A DNA stretch of 64,000 nucleotides, from assembly GCF_000242915.1 (NCBI RefSeq), contig NZ_AFRZ01000001.1, positions 992,001 through 1,056,000 on the forward strand, given 5' to 3'. Under the pieces are notes generated by a model. That model had not been told where the DNA came from and searched no databases. It saw only the letters and a list, made by a program, of their open reading frames with translations. This document shows positions 45,316 to 62,648 of this stretch, one piece after another (position 1 is the stretch's first letter; every line of letters begins with the position of its first letter). Origin of the DNA: Sulfurimonas gotlandica GD1. Its GTDB lineage: Bacteria; Campylobacterota; Campylobacteria; Campylobacterales; Sulfurimonadaceae. The translations under genes were made by a program, and so were the position numbers.

Positions 45316-45792
45316 ATGTTATACATCATATGTGCTTTAAAATCAGAAGCTCAAGCTTTTGTAGATAAATATAAACTTTCAAAAAACAAACAAAACTCTC
45401 AAGTCACTCTTATTGTAAGTGGTATAGGCACAGAGAATATGTTTGAAGCAACTTCAAATATCGTAAATTCAATGAGTAAAAGTGACACTATCATCAACGT
45501 TGGTATTTGCGGTGGAGACAAAAAGTTTAAAATAGGCCAACTAATTGATGCTTTTGAAGAAAATCTTACATGTTTAGACTATGAGGTCACATATAGTGGC
45601 AAATATGAACTTGCTGACATGGAGTCTGAAGGTTTCTTAAGAGCCACACAAAACATAAAAAACAGATATATTTTTAAAGTTGTAAGTGACCATTTTGAAC
45701 CGCAAATGGTGACAAAAGAAAAGACAAAATCACTTATCTTTAATGTTATAGATGATATAAACAATAAAATTAATTTTAAGGCTGATAATTGA
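45316..45792 (+). CDS. Short nucleoside phosphorylase-like protein
   Basis: A 158-residue protein of the PNP/MTAN superfamily: LYIICALKSEAQAFVDKYKL at the start, LIVSGIGTENMFEATSNI, INVGICGG, and the ribose-binding LADMESEGFLRA followed by VVSDHF. It is much shorter than MTAN (about 230 aa): the segment between the INVGICGG strand and DMES is reduced. It overlaps the NagZ-amidase gene by 4 nt, so it heads the cell-wall recycling operon. Whether it is catalytically active is open. Confidence 0.65.
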   Translation: MLYIICALKSEAQAFVDKYKLSKNKQNSQVTLIVSGIGTENMFEATSNIVNSMSKSDTIINVGICGGDKKFKIGQLIDAFEENLTCLDYEVTYSGKYELADMESEGFLRATQNIKNRYIFKVVSDHFEPQMVTKEKTKSLIFNVIDDINNKINFKADN

Positions 45793-47456
45793 GATATATT
45801 TTAATACTCTTACTAACTTTTTTAACACTAGATGCTAAAGATGCAGAACTAAAAAAACAAATAGGTCGAATGCTCGTTGTTGGATTTGAAAACCAAAGCG
45901 TTAACAACAATACTGAGATTGTAGAATATATTCAGCAATATGAACTAGGAGGAGTGGTTTTATTTGATAGATTTTATAAAAAAAGAAGCCAAATTAAAAA
46001 TATAGATACACCAGAACAACTTCAAGAGCTAACTGCCAAACTTCAAAAATTTTCACGTAAACCACTTTTAATATCAGTTGATCAAGAAGGTGGAAATATT
46101 GCACGACTGAAACATTACTACGGGTTTGACAGATTTCCATCTGCTAAAGAAGTTTCATACCTTTCACTAACTCAAGCCAAAGACATATATAACAGACAAT
46201 CAAAAATGCTCAGTAATAATAATATCAACTGTAACTTTGCTCCTGTCGTTGACTTAGACATTAATCCTAAAAACAAAGTTATATCAGAACTGGAACGTTC
46301 ATTTGGTAAAGATAGCGAAAAAGTAACTCACTACGCAAAAATCGTCATAGATTCTCAAACAAAACATAATGTAATAAGTGTATTAAAGCATTTTCCAGGA
46401 CATGGTTCTTCACTGGGAGATTCACATAAAGGTTTTGTAGATATTTCAAATACTTGGAGTCAAAAAGAGTTAGTACCATATCAAAACCTTATAAATTCAA
46501 AAGAAGCAGATATGATAATGAGTGCTCATGTTTTTAACTCCAATCTAGATGCACTATATCCTGCAACACTTTCATACAGCACTAACACTAAACTTCTTCG
46601 CCAAAAAATGGGATTTACAGGTGTATTGATTAGCGATGATTTACAAATGAAAGCTATTACAGATCACTACAATCTAAAAGAGAGTGTTACTCTAGCCATA
46701 AACTCTGGTGTAGACATTCTTCTTTTTGGAAATCAACTAGCATCAAACGACGTAAAAGAGTTAGTAGAGATAATCTACGCACAGGTAAAGAGTGGAGCAA
46801 TTTCAAAGAAAAGAATCATAGAGTCAAATAGAAGAATTGAAAACTTGCACACAAAAAATTCTATAGTTCACAGACCAATAGATTTTGGACAAGAACGTAT
46901 AGATATGAGTAAGGCTTACATAGAACAACACTATGGTTTTGATGTGCAAAACATAAACATCAAACCTAAGGCTATAGTTCTTCACTGGACTGCCGTTATG
47001 GATTTTGAAGATTGTTTTAAAAGGCTAAAAGGAAACACACTCTACAGCGACAGAGGCGACATAGCAGATGCCGGAGCACTCAATGTCTCTTCGCACTTTT
47101 TAGTAGCCCGTGATGGAACTATATATCAACTTATGCCGGATAATTGGATGGCAAGACATGTTATAGGACTTAACTATTCTAGTATAGGCATAGAAAATGT
47201 TGGTGGTGAAGATAATGTTAAAGATGATTTAACTCCTGAACAAGTAGATGCAAATATCAAACTTGTAAAATATCTAAAAGCAAAGTATCCAAATATAGAA
47301 TACCTCATCGGTCATCATGAATATACTCAGATGGAAAAAACTCCTCTTTGGCTAGAAAAAGATGCTGAGTATAGAACAAAAAAAGCTGATCCTGGGGAAA
47401 AATTTATGAATAGAGTTAGAAAACATGTAGCAGAGTTAGGACTAAAGAAACCATAG
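45789..47456 (+). CDS. Exported beta-N-acetylglucosaminidase (NagZ, GH3) fused to N-acetylmuramoyl-L-alanine amidase
   Basis: A 555-residue two-enzyme fusion. Signal peptide at about 1-15 (ILILLLTFLTLDA). GH3 domain at about 20-345: KHFPGHGSSLGDSHKGF (about 199-215) has the NagZ Asp-His general acid pair, and ISDDLQMKAIT the nucleophile Asp near 281-282. Amidase_2 domain at about 385-555: zinc ligands in VLHWTAV (about 399), IGHHEYTQ (about 509) and ADPGEKF (about 536). It would split GlcNAc from anhydroMurNAc and peptide from MurNAc. Start TTG 45789 overlaps the preceding stop. Both enzymes are cytosolic in E. coli, so export is notable. Confidence 0.88.
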   Translation: MRYILILLLTFLTLDAKDAELKKQIGRMLVVGFENQSVNNNTEIVEYIQQYELGGVVLFDRFYKKRSQIKNIDTPEQLQELTAKLQKFSRKPLLISVDQEGGNIARLKHYYGFDRFPSAKEVSYLSLTQAKDIYNRQSKMLSNNNINCNFAPVVDLDINPKNKVISELERSFGKDSEKVTHYAKIVIDSQTKHNVISVLKHFPGHGSSLGDSHKGFVDISNTWSQKELVPYQNLINSKEADMIMSAHVFNSNLDALYPATLSYSTNTKLLRQKMGFTGVLISDDLQMKAITDHYNLKESVTLAINSGVDILLFGNQLASNDVKELVEIIYAQVKSGAISKKRIIESNRRIENLHTKNSIVHRPIDFGQERIDMSKAYIEQHYGFDVQNINIKPKAIVLHWTAVMDFEDCFKRLKGNTLYSDRGDIADAGALNVSSHFLVARDGTIYQLMPDNWMARHVIGLNYSSIGIENVGGEDNVKDDLTPEQVDANIKLVKYLKAKYPNIEYLIGHHEYTQMEKTPLWLEKDAEYRTKKADPGEKFMNRVRKHVAELGLKKP

Positions 47457-48926
47457 ATGCATAGTGCTTTTTCTTTTCTTGATTGGTCTGTTTTTGGAGC
47501 TTATTTTCTTATATTAGCGATTACTTCATACATCTTAGCACAGACAAAAATCAAAACATCACGAGAGTACTTTGTAAGTGCAAACTCCATGCCTATGTTT
47601 GCCGTTGCCATCTCTGTTTTAGCCACTTCTCAATCAGCCGCAACATTCTTAGGAGCACCTGAGTTTTCATACAAAAACGACTTTACATTTATAGGTTTTT
47701 ATCTCTCAGGTTTAGTCGCTGTTATCTTTGTAGCCTATGTTCTTATTCCTAAGTTTTACGCAATGAGAGCAGTAACTGTTTATGAACTCCTTGAAACTAG
47801 ATATGGAGAATCTGCAAAGAAACAAGCGGGAATCATGTTTCTCATCGGTCGTGTTCTTGCAAGTGGAGCGAGACTCTATATCGGTGCCTTAGCTATTTCA
47901 ATGATTCTTTTTGGAGATATAATCTTTCTTCATGTAATGCTCTCCATAACAATTTTAATGCTTGGGGCTTTGGTATATACATATTTTGGCGGTATAAAAT
48001 CTGTCATTTTAAGTGATATCATCCAAGCCATAACCTATGTCGGAGCAGGTATTGTTGTTCTTGTTTATCTCTACTACTCGCTTGATAGTGTAAACATTAT
48101 GCAAGTGCTTAGTGAGAACAATAAACTCCGTCTTTTTGACACTTCTCTTGATGGCAAATTCAGTGTTATTGGCCTTCTTAGCGGCTGGCTGCTACTAAAC
48201 ATTGCCGCTTTTGGTATGGATCAGGATATGACGCAAAGAGTTCTCAGCTGTAAAAATAAAGAAGATGCTGCAAAGTCTCTTATAGTCTCAATCTTGCTTA
48301 CTATTCCTGTAGTTTTACTCTTTCTTGCCATCGGTGCCCTGCTCTTTGTCTTTTACCACAAAGCATCTGTAGTACAGAGTTTTGACGGAGAAAATATCAC
48401 TATCTTTATGTACTACATTTTAAATGAGATGCCAGACGGTCTTCGCGGTTTAGTAACTGTTGGGGCAATCGCTGCAGCACTCTCTAGTACAAACTCAGTC
48501 TTAGGAGCTATGGCATCTGTAGCCATCGAAGACCTCTACAAACCGTGGAAACTAAAACAAGGTGAGATAGATGAGATGCACTTTGTAAAAGCTTCACGAA
48601 ATGCAGTAGTTTTTTTTGCCCTTGTTTTATCTCTTATGGCAATGGTAAGTTATTTTTGGCAGAGATATAGCGACCTCTCACTCATCAGTTTTGCTCTTGG
48701 TGTTATGGCTTTTGCCTACACTGGTCTTTTAGGTGTTTTCTTCTCTGCTATATTTACTTCAAGGGGAAATTATAAACTAGTTCCTTTTGCACTCGTGGGT
48801 GGCTTTGTAACTGTACTCTCACTTCAACCTTACACTTTTGGAATCAGCCTTGGTTTTTCGTGGCAGATAGTTATTGGGACGATTGTTGCTTTTGGAGTTA
48901 TGCAATTAAAATCTTCTAAGGCTTAA
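47457..48926 (+). CDS. Sodium:solute symporter (SSS family)
   Basis: Inner-membrane Na+ symporter of 489 residues with about 13 hydrophobic segments. Family landmarks: KTSREYFVSANSMPMFAVAI, FIGFYLSGLVAVIFVAY, RVLASGARLYIGALAI, FGMDQDMTQRVLSCKN and TVGAIAAALSSTNSVLGAMA. ATG follows the NagZ-amidase stop with no gap and ends 1 nt before anmK. Placement between a muropeptide hydrolase and anhydroMurNAc kinase suggests it imports anhydroMurNAc or a related sugar; this substrate is inference. Confidence 0.88.
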   Translation: MHSAFSFLDWSVFGAYFLILAITSYILAQTKIKTSREYFVSANSMPMFAVAISVLATSQSAATFLGAPEFSYKNDFTFIGFYLSGLVAVIFVAYVLIPKFYAMRAVTVYELLETRYGESAKKQAGIMFLIGRVLASGARLYIGALAISMILFGDIIFLHVMLSITILMLGALVYTYFGGIKSVILSDIIQAITYVGAGIVVLVYLYYSLDSVNIMQVLSENNKLRLFDTSLDGKFSVIGLLSGWLLLNIAAFGMDQDMTQRVLSCKNKEDAAKSLIVSILLTIPVVLLFLAIGALLFVFYHKASVVQSFDGENITIFMYYILNEMPDGLRGLVTVGAIAAALSSTNSVLGAMASVAIEDLYKPWKLKQGEIDEMHFVKASRNAVVFFALVLSLMAMVSYFWQRYSDLSLISFALGVMAFAYTGLLGVFFSAIFTSRGNYKLVPFALVGGFVTVLSLQPYTFGISLGFSWQIVIGTIVAFGVMQLKSSKA

Positions 48927-48927
48927 A

Positions 48928-50010
48928 ATGAGTGAACTATATATCGGTGTTATGTCAGGGACAAGTATGGATGGCATCGACATTGCTCTTTGTGGGATAG
49001 ATGATACAAAATGCTCCCTCATATCTTCTGCTGAATATCCTTTTGATAATGAACTAGAAGCTGAGATACTTAGCGTAATAAATGGGTCTACTACACTAGA
49101 GCAAATCGGCACTATTGATAACAAACTCGGAACTATGTTTGCAGATGCAATCAATGCCTTTATAACAAAAGAATCTATAGATGCAACAAGCATAAAAGCT
49201 ATCGGTCTTCACGGTCAAACTCTTTGGCACGCTCCTGATGCCGAGTTTGGATTCTCGATGCAATTAGGCGATGCAAATGTTGTAAGTGCAAAAACAAACA
49301 TTCAAGTCGTAGCTGACTTTAGAAGAATGGATATTGCAAATGGTGGTCAAGGCGCTCCTTTTGCTCCCGCTTTTCACCAAGAGATATTTAAGCATCTTGA
49401 TAAAAAAACAGCTGTTTTAAACATTGGTGGTATGGCGAATATTACAATCTTAGGTGAAGAACTTAAAGGTTGGGATACTGGTTGTGGAAATGTTTTGATG
49501 GATTATTGGAGTTCTGTATATATAAACAAAAACTACGACAAAGATGCTCTTTTTGCTCTTAAGGGCGAAGTTAAAGAAGAACTTCTTGAGAGTTTTTTAA
49601 AAGATGAATATTTTTCTAAACTTCCTCCAAAGAGTACTGGACGAGAGTATTTTAACCCTACTTGGCTTGCAAACCATCTTCCGCTTTTTGATACCATCAA
49701 AGCAGAAGATATTCAGCGTACCTTACTTGAACTTACAGCCAAAAGCATCGCAGATGATGCCAATAAAATATACTCACAGCTTCTGATAGTTTGTGGCGGT
49801 GGAGCAAAGAATCCACTTTTGATGCAAAGACTAAAAGAACTGTGTAAGGCAGAGGTAAAAGTGAGTGATGAGTTTGGAGTTAGCAGTGACTATATGGAAG
49901 CGATGGCTTTTGCTTGGCTGGCTTACAAGAGAGTTCATAGAGAAGTTGTAGAGTTATCGAGTGTAACAGGTGCTTCAAAAGACTCTATTTTAGGCGGGAT
50001 ATATGGATAA
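48928..50010 (+). CDS. anmK: Anhydro-N-acetylmuramic acid kinase AnmK
   Basis: Opens the 1,6-anhydro ring of anhydroMurNAc while phosphorylating it to MurNAc 6-phosphate. The 360 residues fit. Seen: YIGVMSGTSMDGIDIALCGI at the start, ADFRRMDIANGGQGAPFAPA, NIGGMANITIL, WDTGCGNVLMDYWS and CGGGAKNPLLMQRL, all typical ASKHA-fold AnmK segments. It overlaps the AmgK-like gene by 8 nt. No murQ is nearby, which is consistent with the AmgK-MurU route rather than the etherase route. Confidence 0.95.
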   Translation: MSELYIGVMSGTSMDGIDIALCGIDDTKCSLISSAEYPFDNELEAEILSVINGSTTLEQIGTIDNKLGTMFADAINAFITKESIDATSIKAIGLHGQTLWHAPDAEFGFSMQLGDANVVSAKTNIQVVADFRRMDIANGGQGAPFAPAFHQEIFKHLDKKTAVLNIGGMANITILGEELKGWDTGCGNVLMDYWSSVYINKNYDKDALFALKGEVKEELLESFLKDEYFSKLPPKSTGREYFNPTWLANHLPLFDTIKAEDIQRTLLELTAKSIADDANKIYSQLLIVCGGGAKNPLLMQRLKELCKAEVKVSDEFGVSSDYMEAMAFAWLAYKRVHREVVELSSVTGASKDSILGGIYG

Positions 50011-50941
50011 GATAAAGGCGTGGTTAAAGACAACTCCCTATAAAGAGTATGAGATAAGCATAGCATCTGCAGATGCAAGTTTTAGAAAGTATTATAGACT
50101 TACAGATGCAGACAAAACTTTTCTGCTTATGGACTCCTCACTTGAAAAAGACTCCCTTGCTCCATTTATAGATGTAACTTCAAGACTTTTAAAAGTTGGT
50201 GTTAATGCACCTGAGATTTTAGAGAAAAATCTAAAAGACGGTTTTTTGATAATCAAAGACTTTGGAAATACTCATTATCTCAATGTTTTAGATGCCAATA
50301 ACTTCAATGTACTATATTCAAAAGCTATAGATACAATCATAACAATGCAAAACGCAGACACAAAAGACCTGCCACTTTATGATAAAGCTTTTTTACATTT
50401 TGAAATGGATTTAATGAAGGATTGGTACTTAGATAAAAATCTAAATGTTACTCTTAGTGAAGCTCAAAAAAGCATCATAGAGAGTTCACTGGATGCTATC
50501 TCAGATGTAGTTCTTTCTCAGCCGCAAGATGTTTTTGTCCACAGAGATTATCACTCACGAAACATTATGATAACACCAGAAAATGAGATAGGCGTGATTG
50601 ACTATCAAGATGCAATGAGTGGAGCGATTACTTATGATTTGGTTTCACTTTTAAAAGATTGTTACATAGCTTATGAGAGAGAAGAAGTTGAAAAACTAGT
50701 TTTAGAGTTTCGTGATAAAAAAGGCTTAGATACAAGTGATGCAGAGTTTTTAAAATGGTTTGATTTTATGGGGATGCAAAGACACATCAAGGTTCTTGGC
50801 ATCTTCAGTCGTCTTTACCTTCGTGATGGTAAAGATGGATATTTAAAAGATATACCGCTAACTCTAAAGTACACTATAGATGCAGCAAGCAGATATGAAG
50901 AAACAAAAGAGCTCTCATATCTTTTAAAAGAAGTTCAATGA
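50003..50941 (+). CDS. amgK: AmgK-like anomeric MurNAc/GlcNAc kinase (APH fold)
   Basis: A 312-residue aminoglycoside-phosphotransferase-fold kinase. The catalytic loop VFVHRDYHSRNIMI (Asp near 180) and the metal motif GVIDYQDAMSGAITYDLVSL match AmgK of Pseudomonas closely; the N-terminal FRKYYRLTDADKTFLLMDSS carries the ATP strand. AmgK phosphorylates MurNAc at C1. Overlap with anmK (8 nt) and with the MurU-like gene (4 nt) supports this over an antibiotic-modifying role. Confidence 0.88.
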   Translation: MDKIKAWLKTTPYKEYEISIASADASFRKYYRLTDADKTFLLMDSSLEKDSLAPFIDVTSRLLKVGVNAPEILEKNLKDGFLIIKDFGNTHYLNVLDANNFNVLYSKAIDTIITMQNADTKDLPLYDKAFLHFEMDLMKDWYLDKNLNVTLSEAQKSIIESSLDAISDVVLSQPQDVFVHRDYHSRNIMITPENEIGVIDYQDAMSGAITYDLVSLLKDCYIAYEREEVEKLVLEFRDKKGLDTSDAEFLKWFDFMGMQRHIKVLGIFSRLYLRDGKDGYLKDIPLTLKYTIDAASRYEETKELSYLLKEVQ

Positions 50942-51591
50942 AAGCGATGATTCTCGCAGCTGGTCGCGGAGAGAGAATGCGACCACTAACTGATACACTT
51001 CCTAAACCTCTTTTAGAAGTTCATGGTAAACCTCTTATACTCTGGCATCTGGAGAGACTTGTTGCGTCCGGCTTTAAAGAAGTCATCATTAACATAGCTC
51101 ACCTAGGTCATAAGATACCCAAAGCTCTCGGTGACGGCTCAAACTACGGCATAAGTATAACTTACTCTGACGAGCAGGATGAAGGTGCTCTTGAGAGTGC
51201 CGGTGGAATTGTAAAAGCACTGCCTCTTTTAGGAGATGAACCTTTTTTAGTTGTAAATGGCGATGTTTTTTGTGACTATGTTTTTGATGCTAATTTTGAC
51301 TTAGGAGATAAGCTGGCTCACCTTATCTTAGTCCCTAATCCTGAGCATAATTTAAAAGGTGATTTTGGCTTAAATGGAACTTCTGTTTTAAATGAAGACA
51401 AAATAAAATATACTTTTTCAGGCATAGGATACTATAGTCCTAAACTTTTTAATAACTTAGAATATGGAAAGTCTGCTCTGTCTCCATTACTTAGGGATGC
51501 AATAGCAAAAAATGAAGTCAGTGGTGAGTTGTTTAATAACATCTGGCATGATATAGGAACACCACAAAGATTGGAAGATATAAACAAATGA
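50938..51591 (+). CDS. murU: MurU-like N-acetylmuramate alpha-1-phosphate uridylyltransferase
   Basis: Nucleotidyltransferase of 217 residues with AMILAAGRGERMRPLTDTLP and KPLLEVHGKPLILWHLERL, then GGIVKALPLLGDEPFLVVNG with D as metal ligand and NIWHDIGTPQRLEDI at the end. Size and sequence fit MurU, which makes UDP-MurNAc from MurNAc 1-phosphate. The gene overlaps amgK by 4 nt and the transglycosylase by 4 nt. A role with other sugar phosphates is possible but less likely in this setting. Confidence 0.87.
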   Translation: MKAMILAAGRGERMRPLTDTLPKPLLEVHGKPLILWHLERLVASGFKEVIINIAHLGHKIPKALGDGSNYGISITYSDEQDEGALESAGGIVKALPLLGDEPFLVVNGDVFCDYVFDANFDLGDKLAHLILVPNPEHNLKGDFGLNGTSVLNEDKIKYTFSGIGYYSPKLFNNLEYGKSALSPLLRDAIAKNEVSGELFNNIWHDIGTPQRLEDINK

Positions 51592-52559
51592 TTAGACTAC
51601 TACTTTTTTTAGCACTTACAACAATTCTCTCAGCTAAATATACAAACTGTGAATTTCAAAACACACACTATATAGATATCTGTAAAAAGGCTGTAAAGAA
51701 TGGCGTCACTTATAAGTACGCCAACAAATTTTTACTCTCATATTTCAAAACTCAGAAATTTGATGAAGTCAGCTGGAAATATTTGCAGCCACGCCATATA
51801 GAAACTCATAAAAAGAGTGAGAAAAAAGCCAATAATGTCTTAGTAAGACATGTTCCAAAGATAGTTGAGCATCTAAAAAAATACGAAGAAGTCTATAACT
51901 ATAGTGAGAAAAAGTATGGTGTGAATCGTGAAATAATTGCAGCTATACTAATGAAAGAGACAAAGCTTGGAAAGATAAAACCAACTCATGATGCGTTTAT
52001 AGTTTTTAATACTATTGTTGTAAGAACTAAGCCAGAGAGTTCCCGCCAAAAATGGTTACTTAATATGGGCAAGACAAATATGGTATCCATTATCACGCAC
52101 TGCTATAAAAAAGGTGTTACTCCTGAGTCATGCAATCTGCCAAGCTCTTATGCCGGAGCTATAGGAATTCCTCAGTTTATGCCAAACAGCTTTGTATATA
52201 CACAGGGATACAAAAATAAACATGCTGATCTGACTAAGATGGAAGATGCTATTGTCTCTGCTAGTAAATTTCTTCACAAAAAAGCAGATTTCTCCAAGCT
52301 TATAGAGTGGGATAAAATGCCTAATTTGCCAATGATAGAATCAGATTGGTACGATTACGAGCATAAGTATGAAAATGCTTCACTTGTTTACACAGAGAAC
52401 AAGCATGGGAAAAAGTATAAGTGCTTTACATGTGAGAAAAAAGATTTTGATTATTTAAAAGAGTATGCTAAAAAGATCATGAGGTATAACAACTCATCTA
52501 ACTACGCTATAGGTGTAATGAGACTGGCATACGACTCACACTATCTGCTCAGTAAATAG
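51588..52559 (+). CDS. MltB-type lytic murein transglycosylase
   Basis: Cleaves glycan strands and yields 1,6-anhydroMurNAc ends. The 323-residue protein has a signal peptide (about 1-16, LLLFLALTTILSA), the catalytic Glu in AAILMKETKLGK (about 124), SSYAGAIGIPQFMPNSF, and the C-terminal helical SLT region. No lipobox is present, so it should be soluble in the periplasm. It ends the plus-strand operon and overlaps the convergent mutarotase gene by 11 nt. It supplies the substrate handled by the upstream genes. Confidence 0.88.
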   Translation: MIRLLLFLALTTILSAKYTNCEFQNTHYIDICKKAVKNGVTYKYANKFLLSYFKTQKFDEVSWKYLQPRHIETHKKSEKKANNVLVRHVPKIVEHLKKYEEVYNYSEKKYGVNREIIAAILMKETKLGKIKPTHDAFIVFNTIVVRTKPESSRQKWLLNMGKTNMVSIITHCYKKGVTPESCNLPSSYAGAIGIPQFMPNSFVYTQGYKNKHADLTKMEDAIVSASKFLHKKADFSKLIEWDKMPNLPMIESDWYDYEHKYENASLVYTENKHGKKYKCFTCEKKDFDYLKEYAKKIMRYNNSSNYAIGVMRLAYDSHYLLSK

Positions 52560-53352
52560 TAGCTTTTAGTGTATGAGATTCACCTGGTTCTATAAGTCTA
52601 AAATCTTCAAATGCATTGGCAGATTCGATGCAGACAAAGTCGTTGTAAGCGTCATCTCTCATAGCACTCATTCTTTTACCCTTTTCTATCCAAGGATTCC
52701 AAACTACAACTGAAGATGAACCTTCATTTTGTATATGAATAGTTCTATCTCTGTCTACAAGTAAGACTTCGCTATTTACTTCTTGGTAGACTCTATCAAC
52801 TTCCTCTTCAAAGATTACATCTCCACTTTGAGTTAATTGTTCAGATGTTAAAGCGTCTAGATATGGCTTATTATTTAGGCCTTTTATTTTTGCATCTGAG
52901 ATATGTGAAACAGGAAAATAAGTATGAAGAGCCTGTGTGATTTTAAAAACTTTATCATCAATGTTTTTTGTGATCAGTTCCATTGTCAGCTTGTCCGAGA
53001 CAGTTACTTTTAACTCCAGTTCAAACTTGTATGGCCATAGAGTCAGTGTCTCTTGTGAGTAACTTAGAGTGAGTATAACTTCTGTTGTGTTGGCATCTAT
53101 CTCTTTAGTGGATTGATGCTCAAACAATGCTGTTCTTGCAAAGCCGTGCTGTGGTAGATTAGGATTGTTCATCCCAAATGATGGCCAGCACACAGGAACT
53201 CCTCCACGAATGGCTTTGCCATCTTGGAAGTCACTTATATCACTAAGCCATAAAAGAGGTTTTTCACCTTTACGAGCGTAGTGAAAAATATGTGCTCCCT
53301 GAAGAGCTATCTTTGCAGATGCAGAGTTGTTATTTACTTCGATAATTACCAT
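52549..53352 (-). CDS. D-hexose-6-phosphate mutarotase / aldose 1-epimerase (YeaD-like)
   Basis: Interconverts alpha and beta anomers of sugar phosphates. The 267-residue beta-sandwich shows IALQGAHIFHYARKGEKPLL, GGVPVCWPSFGMNNPNLPQH, the catalytic His in ALHTYFPVSHI and the catalytic Glu in YNDFVCIESANA. It overlaps the transporter gene by 7 nt and is the last gene of the convergent three-gene operon. Anomer control would suit AmgK, which needs a defined anomer; that link is inference. Confidence 0.88.
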   Translation of the reverse strand: MVIIEVNNNSASAKIALQGAHIFHYARKGEKPLLWLSDISDFQDGKAIRGGVPVCWPSFGMNNPNLPQHGFARTALFEHQSTKEIDANTTEVILTLSYSQETLTLWPYKFELELKVTVSDKLTMELITKNIDDKVFKITQALHTYFPVSHISDAKIKGLNNKPYLDALTSEQLTQSGDVIFEEEVDRVYQEVNSEVLLVDRDRTIHIQNEGSSSVVVWNPWIEKGKRMSAMRDDAYNDFVCIESANAFEDFRLIEPGESHTLKATIY

Positions 53353-54614
53353 GATGATTTTTTATGCCAAAAAATTGCATACATAAATATAAAGAAATAA
53401 CAGACTATACCAACTAAATATGCTGATTGCATATCACCAGTAATTTGCGCAACTTTACCAAAGGCAAGTGGAAGAATCGCTCCACCTGCTATTGCCATTA
53501 TAAGTAAAGCACTTCCCTGAGCTGTGTATTTACCAAGTCCTTCCAGTGCTAGAGGCCAGATGGTAGGCCATACAAGAGCGTTTGCAAAACCAAGAAGTGC
53601 AACAAAAGTAACTGTGTCTGGAAGTGTAGGTATGGAACTCCAACCCCATAAAATCTCAGATATCTCATGAGAAGTGTTTGAGCTGTAAGCAACTCCAAGT
53701 AAAAACAAAATCCCAACAAGAGCAGAACCTATAAGTGCTTTTTCTTGGGAGAGCAACTTAGGAATAAAAGCCACACCAACCAAATAACCAAAGACCATAA
53801 ATACCATCGTGTATGAAGTTAAAGCTGTTGCATTTTCAACTCCAAGACCTTGTGCATAAAGACCGATAGTATCACCTGCAATAACTTCTATACCTACATA
53901 GAAAAAGAGAGCTACAGCACCTAATACGACACGAGGAAAATGAAAAATCGTATCTTTATCGTAAGAGTCCTCTTTTTCAAATTCCAACTCAGGAATAAAT
54001 GAAAACTTCACGAAAATCATAAGTCCGATAAGAACCATTGCCATAATAAGATATGGGGCTATCAGCCTAGATGCAAGCTCTTTTGTGTCAACTAATGCCA
54101 GATTTTCTGATGAAAAAGATGTGATGTCTGAGAGGATTAAAGATGTAAAAAGTATAGGAACTAAGACTCCTGCACTCTTGTTTATAAGCCCCATGATAGA
54201 GATTCTCATAGCAGCGCTCTCTAATGGGCCAATCAAAACAACATAAGGATTTGAGGCTGTTTGAAGGATTGTAAGTCCAGTTCCCAAAGTAAAAAGTGCT
54301 ACTAAGAATATGATGAAGTTTGCACTAAGTGCCGCGGGAATAAAGAGTAGACTTCCTACAGCCATAACAGCTAAACCTATCACCATCCCATTTTTGTAAC
54401 CTGTTTTCTCCAGCACATGAGCCATTGGAAGAGCCATTACCGTGTAAGCTATATAAAAAGCAAATGTTACAAAGAGAGCTTGAAATTCATTTAAATCGCA
54501 GATGACTTTTAAAAATGGAATAAGTGAACCGTTTAACCAAGTTACAAAACCAAATATAAAAAATAAAATGCCGATTATTATCATTGCAAACGAATTAGTG
54601 TGATTTCTACGCAA
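53346..54614 (-). CDS. MFS sugar transporter, FHS family (FucP/GluP-like)
   Basis: A 422-residue inner-membrane proton- or sodium-linked sugar symporter with about 12 segments. FHS landmarks are FGFVTWLNGSLIPFLKVIC, FYIAYTVMALPMAHVLEKTG, LQTASNPYVVLIGP and AITLIQ-type region replaced by NALVWPTIWPLALEGLGKYT. Family members import fucose, glucose/galactose or GlcNAc. The gene overlaps the HAD phosphatase by 8 nt and the mutarotase by 7 nt, so the three are one operon. Confidence 0.88.
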   Translation of the reverse strand: MRRNHTNSFAMIIIGILFFIFGFVTWLNGSLIPFLKVICDLNEFQALFVTFAFYIAYTVMALPMAHVLEKTGYKNGMVIGLAVMAVGSLLFIPAALSANFIIFLVALFTLGTGLTILQTASNPYVVLIGPLESAAMRISIMGLINKSAGVLVPILFTSLILSDITSFSSENLALVDTKELASRLIAPYLIMAMVLIGLMIFVKFSFIPELEFEKEDSYDKDTIFHFPRVVLGAVALFFYVGIEVIAGDTIGLYAQGLGVENATALTSYTMVFMVFGYLVGVAFIPKLLSQEKALIGSALVGILFLLGVAYSSNTSHEISEILWGWSSIPTLPDTVTFVALLGFANALVWPTIWPLALEGLGKYTAQGSALLIMAIAGGAILPLAFGKVAQITGDMQSAYLVGIVCYFFIFMYAIFWHKKSSW

Positions 54615-55434
54615 ATTTTAATCCTTCGAGATATTTAGCAACTCCGTCTTCATCATTTGTGTGGGGAAGGATTATGTCTGCCTCACTTTTAACTTCCTCT
54701 TGTGCATTCGCCATTGCAACAGAAGTCGCCGCCAATTCAAACATACCCAAATCATTAAAATTATCACCAAATACAGTTAGCCTAGATAGATCAAATCCGC
54801 TGTACTCACTAACGCTTCTAATGCCATGAGCTTTGTCAGCATCTTTATGAAGAATAGTTAAAAAATAGCAGCCGACATAAGCCTCAGGTGCTAGGATAAA
54901 CTTCAAAGAATTTCCAAATATTTTCTCTAAAAGAGCTGCCAATTGACGAAGCAGTTTCTCTTCACCCATATAGACTATTTTAAAGTTATCATTCATTGCT
55001 CTGATATCTTTACATTCTTGCAAATTATCATCTTTTGCGTAGCGAGTAAGAACCTCTTTTTGATGTTCATTTAAAATGCTAGAATAAAGGAAAGCCTCAT
55101 TTAGATTATTATCTGCAAGTGCCAATACAAATGGATAGATGCCAAACTTTCCGCCCTCGTTTATAATAATATCGGCTACTTCTTTACTTATAAACTTAGT
55201 ATCTATTATCTTTTTATCCATAGTTGCAATCAGCGCGCCATCGAGAAGTATCATCGGAGCATTAATATGAATATTTTTTAAAAATTGTGCAGTTTTTTTG
55301 TATGTTCTTGCAGTTGCAACGCTCAAAATAGAATCTGTAGATTTTGAATTCCAAATAGTTTGAGTATAATCACTTATTGATAAATCAGTTTTCAAAAAAG
55401 TGTGGTCAAGGTCAGTTATATAAATATTTTTCAT
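54607..55434 (-). CDS. HAD-superfamily phosphatase, Cof/IIB type
   Basis: A 275-residue haloacid dehalogenase-type phosphatase. Motif I is ITDLDHTFL (nucleophile and acid Asp near residues 7 and 9), motif II the Thr/Ser in SVATAR, motif IV GDNFNDLGMFE. The IIB cap lies between. It is the first gene of the operon with a sugar transporter and mutarotase. A candidate for MurNAc 6-phosphate phosphatase (the MupP step of Pseudomonas), though MupP belongs to another HAD subgroup. Divergent from the SDR gene with a 32-nt gap. Confidence 0.82.
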   Translation of the reverse strand: MKNIYITDLDHTFLKTDLSISDYTQTIWNSKSTDSILSVATARTYKKTAQFLKNIHINAPMILLDGALIATMDKKIIDTKFISKEVADIIINEGGKFGIYPFVLALADNNLNEAFLYSSILNEHQKEVLTRYAKDDNLQECKDIRAMNDNFKIVYMGEEKLLRQLAALLEKIFGNSLKFILAPEAYVGCYFLTILHKDADKAHGIRSVSEYSGFDLSRLTVFGDNFNDLGMFELAATSVAMANAQEEVKSEADIILPHTNDEDGVAKYLEGLKFA

Positions 55435-55466: not shown

Positions 55467-56162
55467 ATGAAAAGAGCAGTAGTAACGGGTGCGAGCAGCG
55501 GTATAGGCAAAGAGATAACTTTAAGGCTTTTAAAACTTGATTACGAAGTCATTGGCATCAGCAGAAGCATAACAGATGAAGATTTCAACAACCCATATTT
55601 CAAAGCTATGCAAGCAAATCTAGCAGATGAAAGCTCTACACTTGAAGTATGTAATTATCTAAAAAAAGAGAGTGTTGATATACTAATTAATTGTGCAGGT
55701 TTTGGCCGCTTTGAGCCACATGAAGAACTAAGTGCCAATACTATAACAAGTATGACATTCTTAAACCTTACAGCACCAATGCTTTTGACAAATGCCCTTC
55801 TTCGCTCTCTTAAAAAGAATGATGGATATCTTATAAATATCAACTCCATAGAAGCTATCAAAACTAGTAAATTTGCCGGAGTTTACTCTTCTACTAAAGC
55901 TGGTTTAAAAGCATTTAGCGATTCTCTTTTTGAAGAGACTAGAAAGAGCGGACTTAGTGTTACAAACATAAACCCGGATATGACTCAGACATCTTTTTAT
56001 GATGAACTGCGTTTTGATACAAGTGATAAAGAAGAAGAGAGATTACTGGCTTCTGATATAGCAGATGCTGTTGAGCACATCCTGACTATGAGAAAAGGTG
56101 CAGTCATAAGCGACTACACTATAAGAAGTTTAAAGTTTGGGATTTCTAAAAAAAGATTATGA
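55467..56162 (+). CDS. Short-chain dehydrogenase/reductase
   Basis: Classical SDR of 231 residues: dinucleotide motif TGASSGIGK at about 7-15, NCAGFGRF in place of NAG, catalytic Ser in NINSIEA and YSSTKAG with the Tyr and Lys of the active site. Substrate unknown. It starts after AGGAAG and is divergent from the HAD gene, converging with the flagellar genes. Confidence 0.88.
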   Translation: MKRAVVTGASSGIGKEITLRLLKLDYEVIGISRSITDEDFNNPYFKAMQANLADESSTLEVCNYLKKESVDILINCAGFGRFEPHEELSANTITSMTFLNLTAPMLLTNALLRSLKKNDGYLININSIEAIKTSKFAGVYSSTKAGLKAFSDSLFEETRKSGLSVTNINPDMTQTSFYDELRFDTSDKEEERLLASDIADAVEHILTMRKGAVISDYTIRSLKFGISKKRL

Positions 56163-58437: not shown

Positions 58438-59478
58438 ATGCACGAAATAAGTATTGAAAATAGAAAAATTGGCATTAGCTATCCCCCTCTGGTCATTGTC
58501 GAGATAGGTATTAACCACAAAGGTAATTTGAATACTGCTTTTGAGATGGTTGATGCTGCTTACGGTGCCGGTGCTGAAATAATAAAACATCAAACTCATA
58601 TAGTCGAAGATGAGATGAGCAAAGAAGCAAAAAAAGTCATACCTGCTAATGCAGACATTTCAATCTATGACATAATGAAAGAGTGTGCTCTAAGTGAAGA
58701 AGATGAGATAAAATTAAAAGATTATGTTGAATCAAAAGGTATGATATTTATCAGTACTCCATTTTCAAGAGCAGCTGCAGATAGACTAGAGAGAATGGGT
58801 GTAAAAGCATATAAAATAGGCTCAGGAGAGTGTAATAACTATCCATTGATTGAACATATCGCTTCATTTGGAAAGCCTATGATAGTCAGCACAGGGATGA
58901 ATGACATTAGCTCTATAAGAAAAACTGTTGAGATTCTACAAAACAATAAAATCCCTTTTGCTCTGCTTCACACAACCAACCTCTACCCTACTCCATCACA
59001 CTTAGTAAGACTTGGAGCAATGCAAGAACTTATGAAAGAGTTTCCAGAAACTATAATAGGACTTTCAGATCATACTACTTCAAACTTGGCATGTTTTGCT
59101 GCAACAGCACTTGGTGCTTCTATCTTAGAGAGGCACTTTACAGACAGTATGAGCAGAACTGGTCCTGATATTGTGAATTCTATGGATCCTAAAGCTCTTA
59201 GTGAGTTGATTGAGGGAAGTGCTGAGATAGTAAAAATGCGTGGCGGAAAGAAAGAAGCTGCTGCAGAAGAACAGGTCACTATAGACTTTGCATTTGCAAC
59301 TGTCGTTACAATTAAGCCTGTAAAAAAAGGTGAGACTTTTACAAAAGACAATATTTGGGTAAAAAGACCTGGTACAGGGGAAATAAGAGCTGAACACTAC
59401 AATGATGTACTTGGCAAGACAGCAACAAGTGACATAAACTTTGATGAGCATCTCTCATGGAGTGATATTAATGAGTAA
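58438..59478 (+). CDS. legI: N-acetylneuraminate/legionaminic acid synthase (NeuB/LegI family)
   Basis: Condenses a 6-carbon amino sugar with phosphoenolpyruvate to form a nonulosonic acid. The 346 residues hold a TIM barrel at about 15-280 ([65 protein letters not shown]) and a C-terminal SAF domain at about 285-340 ([19 protein letters not shown]). Sialic, pseudaminic and legionaminic acid synthases are close; legG and ptmE nearby favour legionaminic acid. It opens the operon. Confidence 0.87.
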
Positions 59479-60661
59479 TATCTTAGAGTTGATAGGCAGG
59501 GAAAAAGAGCTTTTTTCATCTGACATATCAACCCATGAAGAGAAACTAAAATCTACAGTCTCGTCTTCAAGCTTTTTGGTAATCGGCGGAGCAGGTTCTA
59601 TCGGTCAGGCGGTTGTAAAAGAGATATTTAAAAGAAACCCTAAGAAACTTCATGTTGTAGATATAAGCGAGAACAACATGGTTGAACTGGTTCGTGATAT
59701 ACGAAGTTCTTTTGGTTATATTGATGGAGATTTTAGAACTTTTGCTCTTGATATTGGGAGTGTAGAGTATGATGCATTTATACACTCTGATGGAAAGTAT
59801 GATTATGTACTAAACCTATCTGCTCTCAAACATGTTAGAAGTGAAGAAGACCAGTACACACTTATGCGGATGATAGACGTAAACATCTTTAACACTGACA
59901 AAACACTAGCTCAAGCCATACAAAAACGCACTAAAAAATACTTCTGTGTCTCAACCGACAAAGCAGCTAACCCTGTAAATATGATGGGTGCAAGCAAAAG
60001 AATTATGGAGATGTTTTTGATGCGCAGAAGCAAATACATAAAAATCTCTACAGCAAGATTTGCGAATGTTGCATTTTCAGACGGAAGTCTGCTTCATGGC
60101 TTTAACCAACGCATCGAAAAAAGACAACCCATAGTAGCTCCAAATGATATTAAACGATACTTTGTTACTCCAAAAGAGAGTGGTGAGTTATGTTTGATGT
60201 CTTGTATCTTCGGTCAAAATCGTGATATATTTTTTCCTAAACTCAGTGAGGATCTGCATCTTATATCTTTTGCAGATATCGCAGTCAAATATCTAAAAGC
60301 TAAAGGCTATGAACCTTATCTTTGCTCTAGTGAAGATGAAGCTAGAGAGTTAGCTAAAACACTTCCAAGTGAAGGAAAGTGGCCCTGTATGTTTACATCT
60401 AGTGATACAACAGGTGAAAAAGATTTTGAAGAGTTTTATACTAAGAATGAAACTCTAGATATGGAGAAGTTTAACAACTTAGGCATCATCAAAAATGAAC
60501 CAATATTTGATGATATCAAACTAAACTACTTCACTCAAAAGATAAGAGAGTTTAAACAGAGATTATCTTGGTCAAAAGAGGATATTGTTGAAGAGTTTTT
60601 CAAACTGATTCCAGACTTTGCTCATAAAGAGATCGGTAAATACCTTGATTCAAAGATGTAA
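59471..60661 (+). CDS. Nucleotide-sugar 4,6-dehydratase, CapD/FlaA1-like
   Basis: NAD-dependent dehydratase/epimerase of 396 residues. Rossmann motif [29 protein letters not shown] and the active-site region [20 protein letters not shown] (Met where Tyr of classical SDRs sits, as usual in this subgroup) are present, and [15 protein letters not shown] follows. A C-terminal extension (about 300-396) is longer than in PseB. It could make the 4-keto-6-deoxy sugar for legionaminic acid. ATG 59471 is preferred, overlapping the legI stop by 8 nt; a frame from 59441 reads back into legI. Confidence 0.8.
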
Positions 60662-60679
60662 GAAAAGGAAAACTACAAA

Positions 60680-61813
60680 ATGAAAATATTAACACTTGTT
60701 GAGAGACGAGCAGACTACTCTAGAATGAGGCCAATACTAAAAGAGCTATACATAGATCCTTTCTTTGATGTACACTTGGTAGTTACTGGCATCTGTCTTC
60801 TTGATATTCATGGTAGTGATATTGATTACATCAAAGAAGATGGATTTAAGATAAACGCACAGCTTGAAATGTTCGAGCCAAACACGAGAAATACAAATGC
60901 TTCTATGGTTAAAGCCCTAAGCAAAATCATGAGTTCTATGACTGATGAACTTGAAAAAATCAAACCTGATCTAGTTCTTACAGGTTTTGACATAGGTGCG
61001 AACCTAGCTACAACTATTGCAGCAGCCCATATGAATATACCCGTAGCTCACATACAAGGCGGTGAGGTGACTGGAAGTATTGATGAAAGCATCAGACACG
61101 CAATGAGTAAATTTGCTCATATTCACTTTCCTGCGACTGAAGATGCAAGGCAAAGATTAATTAGACTAGGTGAAAACCCGGACTATGTTTTTAATGTCGG
61201 CTGTCCATCAATCGACACAATCGTGCAGACTCCTCTCATAGACAAAAGTATATTGGAGAAAAAATTTAATATTGACTTTTCAAAACCAACTATTTTACTT
61301 ATCCAGCATCCAGTAACAACTGAAAGTTCTGAATCAAAAAGACAGATTTTAAACACTATAGAAGTTATTAAAGACTTAGGTGTTCAAGCTCTTGTAGCTC
61401 TTCCCAACAATGATGCGGGATCTTCAGATATTATAGATGAAATTAAAAACTCTGGACTTAGCTGGTACCCTAGTCTCTCAACAGAGGAGTTCATAAATGT
61501 TTATAGAAACATCTGGGCGATTGTAGGAAACTCTAGCTCAGGGATTCATGAATCTTCTACATTTGGAATACCTGCTGTAAACATAGGTACAAGACAACAA
61601 GACAGGGAAAGAGCAGATAATGTAATAGACGTATCATACGACAAAGCAGATATCAAAGCAGGTATAGAAAAAGCACTCTTTGATGCTGATACAAGAGAAA
61701 AAGCTAAACATACGCATAATCCATACGGAGAAGGTGAGTCTGCGAAAGAGATAGTAAAGGTATTAAAAACTGTCTCACTTGAGGGCATAGTTCAAAAGAG
61801 ATTTTATGAGTAG
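60680..61813 (+). CDS. legG: Nucleotide-sugar 2-epimerase (hydrolysing), LegG/NeuC family
   Basis: Hydrolyses and epimerises a GDP- or UDP-linked diamino sugar to the free 2,4-diacetamido mannose derivative that LegI uses. The 377 residues of the GT-B fold show LTLVERRADYSRMRPILKEL, HIQGGEVTGSIDESIRHAMS, HFPATEDARQRL, the catalytic region VGNSSSGIHESSTFGIPAVN and GTRQQDRE. These closely match NeuC/LegG enzymes. AGAAAAGGAA gives a good ribosome site. It overlaps the next gene by 8 nt. Confidence 0.9.
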   Translation: MKILTLVERRADYSRMRPILKELYIDPFFDVHLVVTGICLLDIHGSDIDYIKEDGFKINAQLEMFEPNTRNTNASMVKALSKIMSSMTDELEKIKPDLVLTGFDIGANLATTIAAAHMNIPVAHIQGGEVTGSIDESIRHAMSKFAHIHFPATEDARQRLIRLGENPDYVFNVGCPSIDTIVQTPLIDKSILEKKFNIDFSKPTILLIQHPVTTESSESKRQILNTIEVIKDLGVQALVALPNNDAGSSDIIDEIKNSGLSWYPSLSTEEFINVYRNIWAIVGNSSSGIHESSTFGIPAVNIGTRQQDRERADNVIDVSYDKADIKAGIEKALFDADTREKAKHTHNPYGEGESAKEIVKVLKTVSLEGIVQKRFYE

Positions 61814-62648
61814 TATCCTAATTTTAGGAGCAAGTGGATTACTTGGTCGGACTTTAGTAGATTTTTTTAAAGATAAAAATCATACAATAGGTGTGCTAAG
61901 TAGAAATCCAATACACTATACAGAACCAAATATAGAAGTTCATAGTGTTGATATACTAGAGTATAACTCACTAGATTCTGTAATACAGAAGTATAAAACT
62001 ATCATCAACTGTACTGGTCAAATCACAAACCCTATCAACCTCTCTCTTTTATTAAATACAGATGGAATAAGCAATATCGTAAAAGCTGTAAAAAAGCATG
62101 ATAAAAGGCTAATACATATCTCTTCTGTAGCAGTTTACGGTGAAGCTGAGTATGTTAATGAAGAAAGCCACATAAACCCACAAACTCCTTATGGAAGCTT
62201 CAAATATTTCTCAGAGTATATAGTCAAAAGCAATTTAAAAAACTACTCTATTTTAAGAGTGTCAAATCTATTTGGAAAGCATCAGGAAAAAGGAATCATT
62301 AATTATCTAACAAAAAGTTATTTAAATAATACTCCTAATGTACATTTTAATAATGATGGCAGTTTAAAACGCTACTATTTGCATATAAAAGATTTATCGT
62401 CAATTATCAATGAAATAATGAAGATAAACCTTAGTGGTACTTATAATATTATTGGCAGTGAATGCTTAAATATAAAAGAGTTGGTTAAAAGATTTGAAGA
62501 TATTTTAAACTACAAATATTTTGTAAACTATTCAGAGGATTTGGCTATAGAGAACATAGACAAGATAGATGATTCTAAAATCAAAAGTATTACAGATACT
62601 ACGCCTAAAGTCGATATGAATAAGTACATAGAGGAGCTCAAGCGATGA
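61806..62648 (+). CDS. NAD-dependent epimerase/dehydratase (extended SDR)
   Basis: A 280-residue nucleotide-sugar-modifying SDR: LILGASGLLGRTLVDFF at the start, INCTGQITNP, SSVAVYGEAEYVNE, the YGSFKYFSE active-site Tyr and Lys, and LRVSNLFGKHQ. It lies between legG and ptmE with overlaps of 8 and 4 nt on the two sides. Its substrate is not obvious; a role in making a legionaminic acid derivative or a second sugar is inferred from position. Confidence 0.8.
   Translation: MSSILILGASGLLGRTLVDFFKDKNHTIGVLSRNPIHYTEPNIEVHSVDILEYNSLDSVIQKYKTIINCTGQITNPINLSLLLNTDGISNIVKAVKKHDKRLIHISSVAVYGEAEYVNEESHINPQTPYGSFKYFSEYIVKSNLKNYSILRVSNLFGKHQEKGIINYLTKSYLNNTPNVHFNNDGSLKRYYLHIKDLSSIINEIMKINLSGTYNIIGSECLNIKELVKRFEDILNYKYFVNYSEDLAIENIDKIDDSKIKSITDTTPKVDMNKYIEELKR

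Follow-up and report, generated by a model that had tools for sequence, protein, structure and literature searches.

A 64,000-nucleotide stretch of the Sulfurimonas gotlandica GD1 genome (the window; positions 992001-1056000 of C1, the single contig of 2,952,682 bases) contains ten open reading frames (ORFs), at window positions 45316-55434, that quite probably encode an anabolic recycling system for the peptidoglycan sugars N-acetylglucosamine (GlcNAc) and N-acetylmuramic acid (MurNAc), independent of AmpG. An ORF check of the window gave the order and orientation reported in a first-pass annotation of this DNA, and Pfam and NCBIfam searches confirmed the family it had named for each gene. 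A plus-strand run of seven genes (nuc, nagZ-ami, the SSS symporter gene, anmK, amgK, murU, and mltB) faces a minus-strand operon for a mutarotase, a NagP-like FHS transporter, and a Cof-type HAD phosphatase:

45316-45792, plus strand: nuc, compact MTAN/futalosine-hydrolase-like protein of 158 residues (NCBIfam fut_nucase, E = 1.4e-4)
45789-47456, plus strand: nagZ-ami, GH3 N-acetylglucosaminidase plus Amidase_2 N-acetylmuramoyl-L-alanine amidase, TTG start, 555 residues (Pfam, NCBIfam)
45789-45839, plus strand: predicted Sec signal peptide of the fusion, MRYILILLLTFLTLDA, followed by K (sequence, hydropathy)
45849-46844, plus strand: GH3 (NagZ) domain of the fusion (Pfam)
46962-47396, plus strand: Amidase_2 domain of the fusion (Pfam)
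47457-48926, plus strand: SSS sodium:solute symporter, proposed importer of MurNAc or its anhydro form, anhydroMurNAc (SSF)
48928-50010, plus strand: anmK, anhydroMurNAc kinase, predicted cytosolic (Pfam, NCBIfam)
50003-50941, plus strand: amgK, anomeric MurNAc/GlcNAc kinase (NF045759, 1.2e-76)
50938-51591, plus strand: murU, MurNAc-1-phosphate uridylyltransferase (NF045761, 304.7 bits)
51588-52559, plus strand: mltB-like lytic transglycosylase with predicted signal peptide (SLT_2, 3.8e-31)
52549-53352, minus strand: aldose 1-epimerase-like mutarotase, predicted cytosolic (Aldose_epim, 1.6e-45)
53346-54614, minus strand: FHS-family MFS transporter, NagP-like, proposed GlcNAc importer (NF046060, 8.1e-148)
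54607-55434, minus strand: Cof-type HAD-IIB phosphatase, proposed to act on MurNAc-6-phosphate (Pfam, motifs)

All neighbours within each strand overlap or abut, and the genes therefore look like two convergent operons. On the plus strand, nuc and nagZ overlap by 4 base pairs (bp), nagZ and the SSS gene meet at 0 bp, the SSS gene and anmK lie 1 bp apart, and the anmK/amgK, amgK/murU, and murU/mltB pairs overlap by 8, 4, and 4 bp. On the minus strand the overlaps are 7 bp (mutarotase/FHS) and 8 bp (FHS/HAD); the convergent mltB and mutarotase genes share 11 bp. This order is not a product of chance, because over 20 related genomes have the identical order. Among named organisms, Sulfurimonas sp. 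GH10 has the nearest relative of the fusion (83% identity), with the genes in the same order, and the congeners compared here are accordingly taken as Sulfurimonas-type. Across the genus the order nagZ(-ami)-SSS-anmK-amgK-murU-mltB is found repeatedly; the mutarotase-FHS-HAD set lies either beside mltB or elsewhere, next to the same SDR gene.

The genes also tend to occur together. Among 45 well-assembled congeners, 34 encode AnmK, and every one of these also encodes AmgK, SSS, NagZ, and HAD; five genomes lack all five proteins. Sister genomes G037 and G100 keep the genes MCP-rsbU-nuc-nagZ-mltB-SDR-fliD in the order of the window, and jointly lack the amidase domain, SSS, anmK, amgK, murU, mutarotase, FHS, and HAD; their nagZ and mltB matches stand about 10 bp apart. 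(In-frame stops had been reported for these two nagZ genes, but a pseudogene reading was rejected, the longest open frames being 367 residues.)

Recycling in Gram-negative bacteria is taught as AmpG-mediated import of intact anhydromuropeptides. Profile searches for the named families, on which all absences given here rest, found no AmpG (TIGR00901) in the whole genome or in its congeners (79 genomes searched). For MurQ (TIGR00274) the best match in the whole genome reached 25 bits against a cut-off of 302, inside a 609-residue frame, and is probably a SIS domain of GlmS. The best genome match to the MupP equivalog reached 87 bits, the cut-off being 359, and NagA had no match in the genome. 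The anabolic route is the only one encoded, because AmpG, MurQ, NagA, and any protein at the MupP level were all not found. The first-pass annotation had seen no need for AmpG in this system and proposed a genome search for ampG, murQ, and mupP; none turned up, and that part of it holds.

The NagZ-amidase fusion matches the GH3 N-terminal domain (1e-65) and Amidase_2 (4e-21). Its nearest solved NagZ relative is the exported NagZ/YbbD of Bacillus subtilis (158 bits), Gram-negative NagZs scoring at most 98 bits. The NagZ domain has the hallmarks of GH3 NagZ: the KHFPGHGxxxxDSH loop with its Asp/His dyad, and the Asp nucleophile (D211/H213 and D283, conserved in 52 aligned rows). The amidase domain likewise has the zinc ligands H399, H509, and D534 and the catalytic lysine K532 of Amidase_2, conserved in 43 rows; presumably these correspond to the zinc and catalytic residues of AmpD. 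It scores 31 bits against the NCBIfam AmpD model (cut-off, 143). Predicted fold gave no assignment to AmpD or AmiD: for an AlphaFold2 model of the domain (predicted local distance difference test score, pLDDT, of 92.2), Foldseek scored endolysin amidases, peptidoglycan recognition proteins, AmpD, and AmiD alike, and AmpDh3 was also matched.

Both activities are predicted to be exported. A 10-residue stretch with mean hydropathy of at least 2.0 lies within the N-terminus of 38 of 41 NagZ orthologues; by the same measure, none of the AnmK, AmgK, MurU, HAD, or mutarotase N-termini (20-34 of each) qualifies. MltB N-termini are hydrophobic in all 29 orthologues. In some congeners NagZ and amidase are fused, in others they are separate, with the amidase gene unlinked; the split amidases also start with a hydrophobic segment, as do those of Sulfurovum-type genomes. 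The annotated signal peptide of NagZ and amidase is thus borne out by prediction for the fused and the split forms. (A lipobox-like TAC is present at the start of three Sulfurovum-type amidases, 9890-10618 of L009, 9890-10621 of L011, and 3385-4188 of L012, which may be lipoproteins, unlike those of Sulfurimonas type.) A single origin of the fusion was rejected: the NagZ tree requires about five state changes, at least three of them forced by well-supported branches, so that there was more than one gain or loss of the fusion. Sulfurovum-type genomes place the amidase gene next to the SSS gene. NagZ, amidase, and SSS have therefore been joined repeatedly, in different ways.

The substrate of AnmK is free anhydroMurNAc. 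Since both splitting enzymes reside in one exported protein, this sugar would have to be made outside the membrane and carried in. The argument assumes a real signal peptide, and the searches for cytosolic hexosaminidases and amidases covered the NagZ-like and Amidase_2 families; neither family has a second copy in the genome. An imported intact muropeptide could thus not be converted to the AnmK substrate by these enzymes. The competing view is that another carrier, perhaps an ABC system like YejBEF-YepA, imports intact muropeptides for cytosolic processing, leaving the fusion as a periplasmic wall-remodelling hydrolase only. YejBEF-YepA does work in this way in AmpG-less Agrobacterium (PMC9790009), and the genome encodes one SBP_bac_5 protein, with Opp4A/NikA-like models best, well below cut-off. 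But no second NagZ-like or Amidase_2 gene is available for the cytosolic work; the lone solute-binding protein gene (C1:1542617) is unlinked to the island and would have to carry all peptide import; and SSS and AnmK co-occur, in one operon. With that single unlinked gene as the candidate, YejBEF/YepA-type import was set aside as unlikely, and import of intact muropeptides as a whole seems to us highly unlikely.

For entry of the free sugar, the SSS symporter is the proposed carrier. When this protein was searched against 72,556 plasmid records translated in six frames, six records gave 331-436 bits (39-46% identity), the SSS proteins after them reaching at most 148 bits. All six are from Sphingomonadales (L148-L153). 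In every one murQ and a TonB receptor gene lie beside the SSS gene and nagA and an SIS protein are also present; five have a D-lactate dehydrogenase or FAD-linked oxidase, and in three anmK falls within the stretch. D-lactate is a by-product of MurQ. The SSS gene thus lies with muramic-acid genes in independent lineages: Sulfurimonas-type, Sulfurovum-type, and Sphingomonadales. The motifs QSxATFLGxP and GRxxAxGARxY are common to the SSS proteins of both phyla and differ from SiaT, their nearest solved structure (5NV9, 1.9e-38). This protein belongs, by its sequence, to a discrete subfamily, and it is very probably an importer of MurNAc or anhydroMurNAc, an assignment made mainly because the subfamily accompanies two different modes of muramic-acid use across two phyla. 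No conclusion on substrate was drawn from the SiaT binding site, of which S60 and T63 are kept and R135 does not align. (In three of the Sphingomonadales clusters a PP2C-like gene directly precedes anmK: L148 4032-4889, L150 16906-17742, and L151 4031-4879.)

Among the cytosolic enzymes, AnmK (1e-130) passes its NCBIfam equivalog (463 versus 367 bits), and its nearest solved structures are AnmK 3CQY (1.7e-89), 8BRE, and 3QBW. AmgK is an APH-type kinase for which the AmgK equivalog is the best model (258 bits); MurU exceeds its cut-off (304.7 versus 250 bits), with 4Y7T (1.7e-61) and 8HHD, a structure named MurU, as nearest solved relatives. (In G098 a two-gene insertion separates anmK from amgK, at L062 13546-15428; the N-terminus of the second product resembles a DNA cytosine methyltransferase.) AmgK and MurU lead to UDP-MurNAc, and the sugars would therefore feed wall synthesis. 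The FHS protein matches the NagP (SO3503) model NF046060 best of all models (8.1e-148, 493 bits) and is probably a GlcNAc importer. Neither transporter is therefore tied to an unrelated solute: the SSS subfamily is found beside murQ, and the FHS best match is NagP.

Might the cluster instead scavenge foreign peptidoglycan or GlcNAc as food, with FHS, mutarotase, and HAD a generic hexose module that happens to neighbour a recycling operon? In many congeners (L108-L124) the mutarotase-FHS-HAD set does stand apart from the nagZ operon, and the Sphingomonadales SSS relatives lie in murQ/nagA clusters that are plainly for catabolism and include TonB receptors. The present genome, however, is without NagA and MurQ, its AmgK and MurU lead to UDP-MurNAc, and the operon holds no TonB receptor. 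Moreover, HAD follows AnmK and AmgK also where it is unlinked, and G037 and G100 lack all three. Scavenging is accordingly unlikely.

The HAD protein bears on the MupP step, for which no homologue was found. Motifs D8xD10, T41, K201, and GD224xxND228 are conserved in 31 orthologues. HAD is retained without an adjoining FHS gene in G002 (L125), G018 (L120), and G001 (L123), and in G083 (L139) it directly follows murU, convergent with it, with no FHS or mutarotase gene. Counted against AmgK, 36 genomes have both, seven have neither, and two have HAD only (Fisher p = 8e-7, kinship ignored). A HAD gene that tracks AnmK and AmgK when unlinked or FHS-less thus belongs with the MurNAc branch and not with uptake of GlcNAc. 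The suggestion that this enzyme fills the MupP step therefore gains weight, since HAD is present in 34 of 34 well-assembled congeners with AnmK, even unlinked or FHS-less, and no MupP-level protein was found; it is the best candidate, and a fairly likely one, for a predicted MupP substitute. (In G093 only short pieces of the FHS gene, at L114 7401-7875, lie beside an intact HAD gene. An SDR gene, window 55467-56162, is divergent from HAD in most congeners, whether HAD is near the nagZ operon or not, and persists in L128 and L129, where HAD is missing.)

Alternatively, the route may hold with a HAD-IA protein encoded elsewhere (C1:2828-3403 or C1:1545314-1545910) at the MupP step, and the Cof-type HAD acting on another sugar phosphate. 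Pseudomonas MupP is itself HAD-IA, and one of the two proteins (L104) reaches 87 bits with the MupP model; Cof-type HADs, moreover, are often broadly specific. L104 nevertheless scores higher, at 122 bits, as a phosphoglycolate phosphatase. Both HAD-IA proteins fall under a quarter of the MupP cut-off and both genes are unlinked to the pathway, whereas the Cof-type HAD is in every well-assembled AnmK-positive congener, and beside murU in G083. We regard the HAD-IA assignment as possible but doubtful.

These observations suggest a route in which cleavage precedes import. In the periplasm, MltB, the proposed source of anhydromuropeptides, and other lytic transglycosylases would release GlcNAc-anhydroMurNAc-peptides, from which the exported fusion would strip GlcNAc and the stem peptide. 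The SSS symporter would then bring in anhydroMurNAc, and probably MurNAc, with Na+; the NagP-like transporter, where kept, would bring in GlcNAc. In the cytosol, AnmK would form MurNAc-6-phosphate, the Cof-type HAD would remove the phosphate, and AmgK followed by MurU would yield MurNAc-1-phosphate and UDP-MurNAc. GlcNAc could undergo the same conversion through AmgK plus GlmU. There is about an even chance that the mutarotase supplies the anomer used by AmgK. Entry of the stem peptide through the lone Opp-like system is a guess. Substrates, transport directions, and enzymatic steps throughout are what we infer from gene content, single-copy status, missing families, export signals, conservation, and co-occurrence. 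On this basis, chances are somewhat better than even that the Na+-coupled SSS importer subfamily, the exported NagZ-amidase, and the HAD-IIB phosphatase make up a complete AmpG-free, sugar-by-sugar route in much of Sulfurimonas. The interpretation in the first-pass annotation is supported: no AmpG or MupP-level protein was found elsewhere, and the transporters are not tied to unrelated solutes.

Several points weigh against it. Signal peptides were called on hydropathy alone, and NagZ homologues occur in 16 of 34 genera versus one for AnmK, hence also in genera that lack AnmK, so that an exported NagZ by itself is no proof of recycling. The carboxylate-binding R135 of SiaT is not at the aligned SSS position; two invariant SSS arginines flank that position, one three residues to the N-terminal side and the other four to the C-terminal side. 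AmgK and the NagP-like protein fall below their equivalog cut-offs of 550 and 625 bits, and several congeners do without the FHS gene. HAD-IIB substrate specificity is not readable from sequence. Finally, co-occurrence was counted over related genomes with shared ancestry uncorrected.

The AnmK-MupP-AmgK-MurU route itself was already known (PMC5371407, PMC5371409). Pseudomonas-type recycling (AmpG, cytosolic NagZ and AmpD, AnmK, MupP, AmgK, and MurU) shares with the present system AnmK, AmgK, and MurU, the lack of MurQ, and UDP-MurNAc as an end product that by-passes MurA. Here, however, there is no AmpG; NagZ and amidase are exported and fused rather than cytosolic; a Cof-type HAD-IIB co-occurs in place of a MupP homologue; and the sugars would enter singly, through SSS and FHS transporters, from one island.

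Other precedents match in part. For Rhodothermus marinus, an exported NagZ without AmpG was inferred, with no importer identified (PMC6987092). There too, a signal-peptide NagZ is fused to a second domain, AmpG, AmpD, and intracellular NagZ are lacking, AnmK is cytosolic, and periplasmic cleavage was inferred (PMC6987092); its second domain is beta-lactamase-like, however, and its genes are unclustered, whereas here the importer and the full UDP-MurNAc route are linked. The B. subtilis murQRP-amiE-nagZ cluster encodes extracellular AmiE and NagZ and import by MurP (PMC5061867). Amidase and NagZ likewise act outside the membrane there and freed MurNAc is imported, but they are separate proteins of a Gram-positive organism, MurP is a phosphotransferase system that phosphorylates its substrate, and MurQ makes the pathway catabolic. 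In Agrobacterium, the YejBEF-YepA ABC carrier of intact muropeptides replaces AmpG ahead of the AnmK/MupP/AmgK/MurU route (PMC9790009); whole muropeptides enter, and NagZ and AmpD are cytosolic.

The SSS protein also has partial parallels. SiaT (5NV9, PMC5931594) retains S60, T63, and the Na2 serines in common with it, and its substrate too is an N-acetylated acidic sugar; it is distant, its R135 falls in another column, and it is without the GRxxAxGARxY signature. The Sphingomonadales clusters (TonB receptor-SSS-murQ-(anmK)-nagA) place the same subfamily beside muramic-acid enzymes, but are catabolic (MurQ, NagA, D-lactate dehydrogenase), have an outer-membrane receptor, and have no amgK or murU annotated in the stretches read. 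AnhydroMurNAc can pass through MurP of Escherichia coli, and by what route the free sugar gets into Tannerella is not known (PMC7670621).

In the open-licence literature we found no paper on such an arrangement in Campylobacterota, and none naming an importer of free anhydroMurNAc in AmpG-less Gram-negatives. The first-pass statement that the arrangement was undescribed thus needs narrowing: an exported NagZ in an AmpG-less setting had been inferred for Rhodothermus and is known in Bacillus, whereas the linked operon, the SSS subfamily, the NagZ-amidase fusion, and HAD-IIB at the MupP step were not found described. The conserved SSS subfamily, which accompanies anmK-amgK-murU in one phylum and murQ in another, offers a concrete candidate importer. 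Moreover, if peptides and sugars are separated before import, these bacteria would not generate in their cytosol the anhydromuropeptide signal by which AmpC is induced in other Gram-negatives.

The leading gene of the operon, nuc, is to our knowledge not among known peptidoglycan genes. Its AlphaFold2 model (pLDDT 94.6) has MTANs as closest Protein Data Bank folds, and E11, DMES, and SD are invariant across 22 orthologues, retaining acidic residues of the MTAN-family active site; nuc encodes a genuine MTAN-fold protein, though a shortened one. It stays with nagZ even in genomes without recycling genes (L128, L129).

Outside the genus, G073, which belongs to a different family in the order, encodes an exported homologue of NagZ but lacks AnmK; three of its MFS proteins are AmpG-like, at 121-159 bits, below cut-off (L027, L029, L030). 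In the window itself, positions 58438-62648, next to flagellar genes, encode a NeuB/PseI-like synthase, a nucleotide-sugar epimerase, and other proteins, and look like a locus for synthesis of nonulosonic acid (flagellin glycan).

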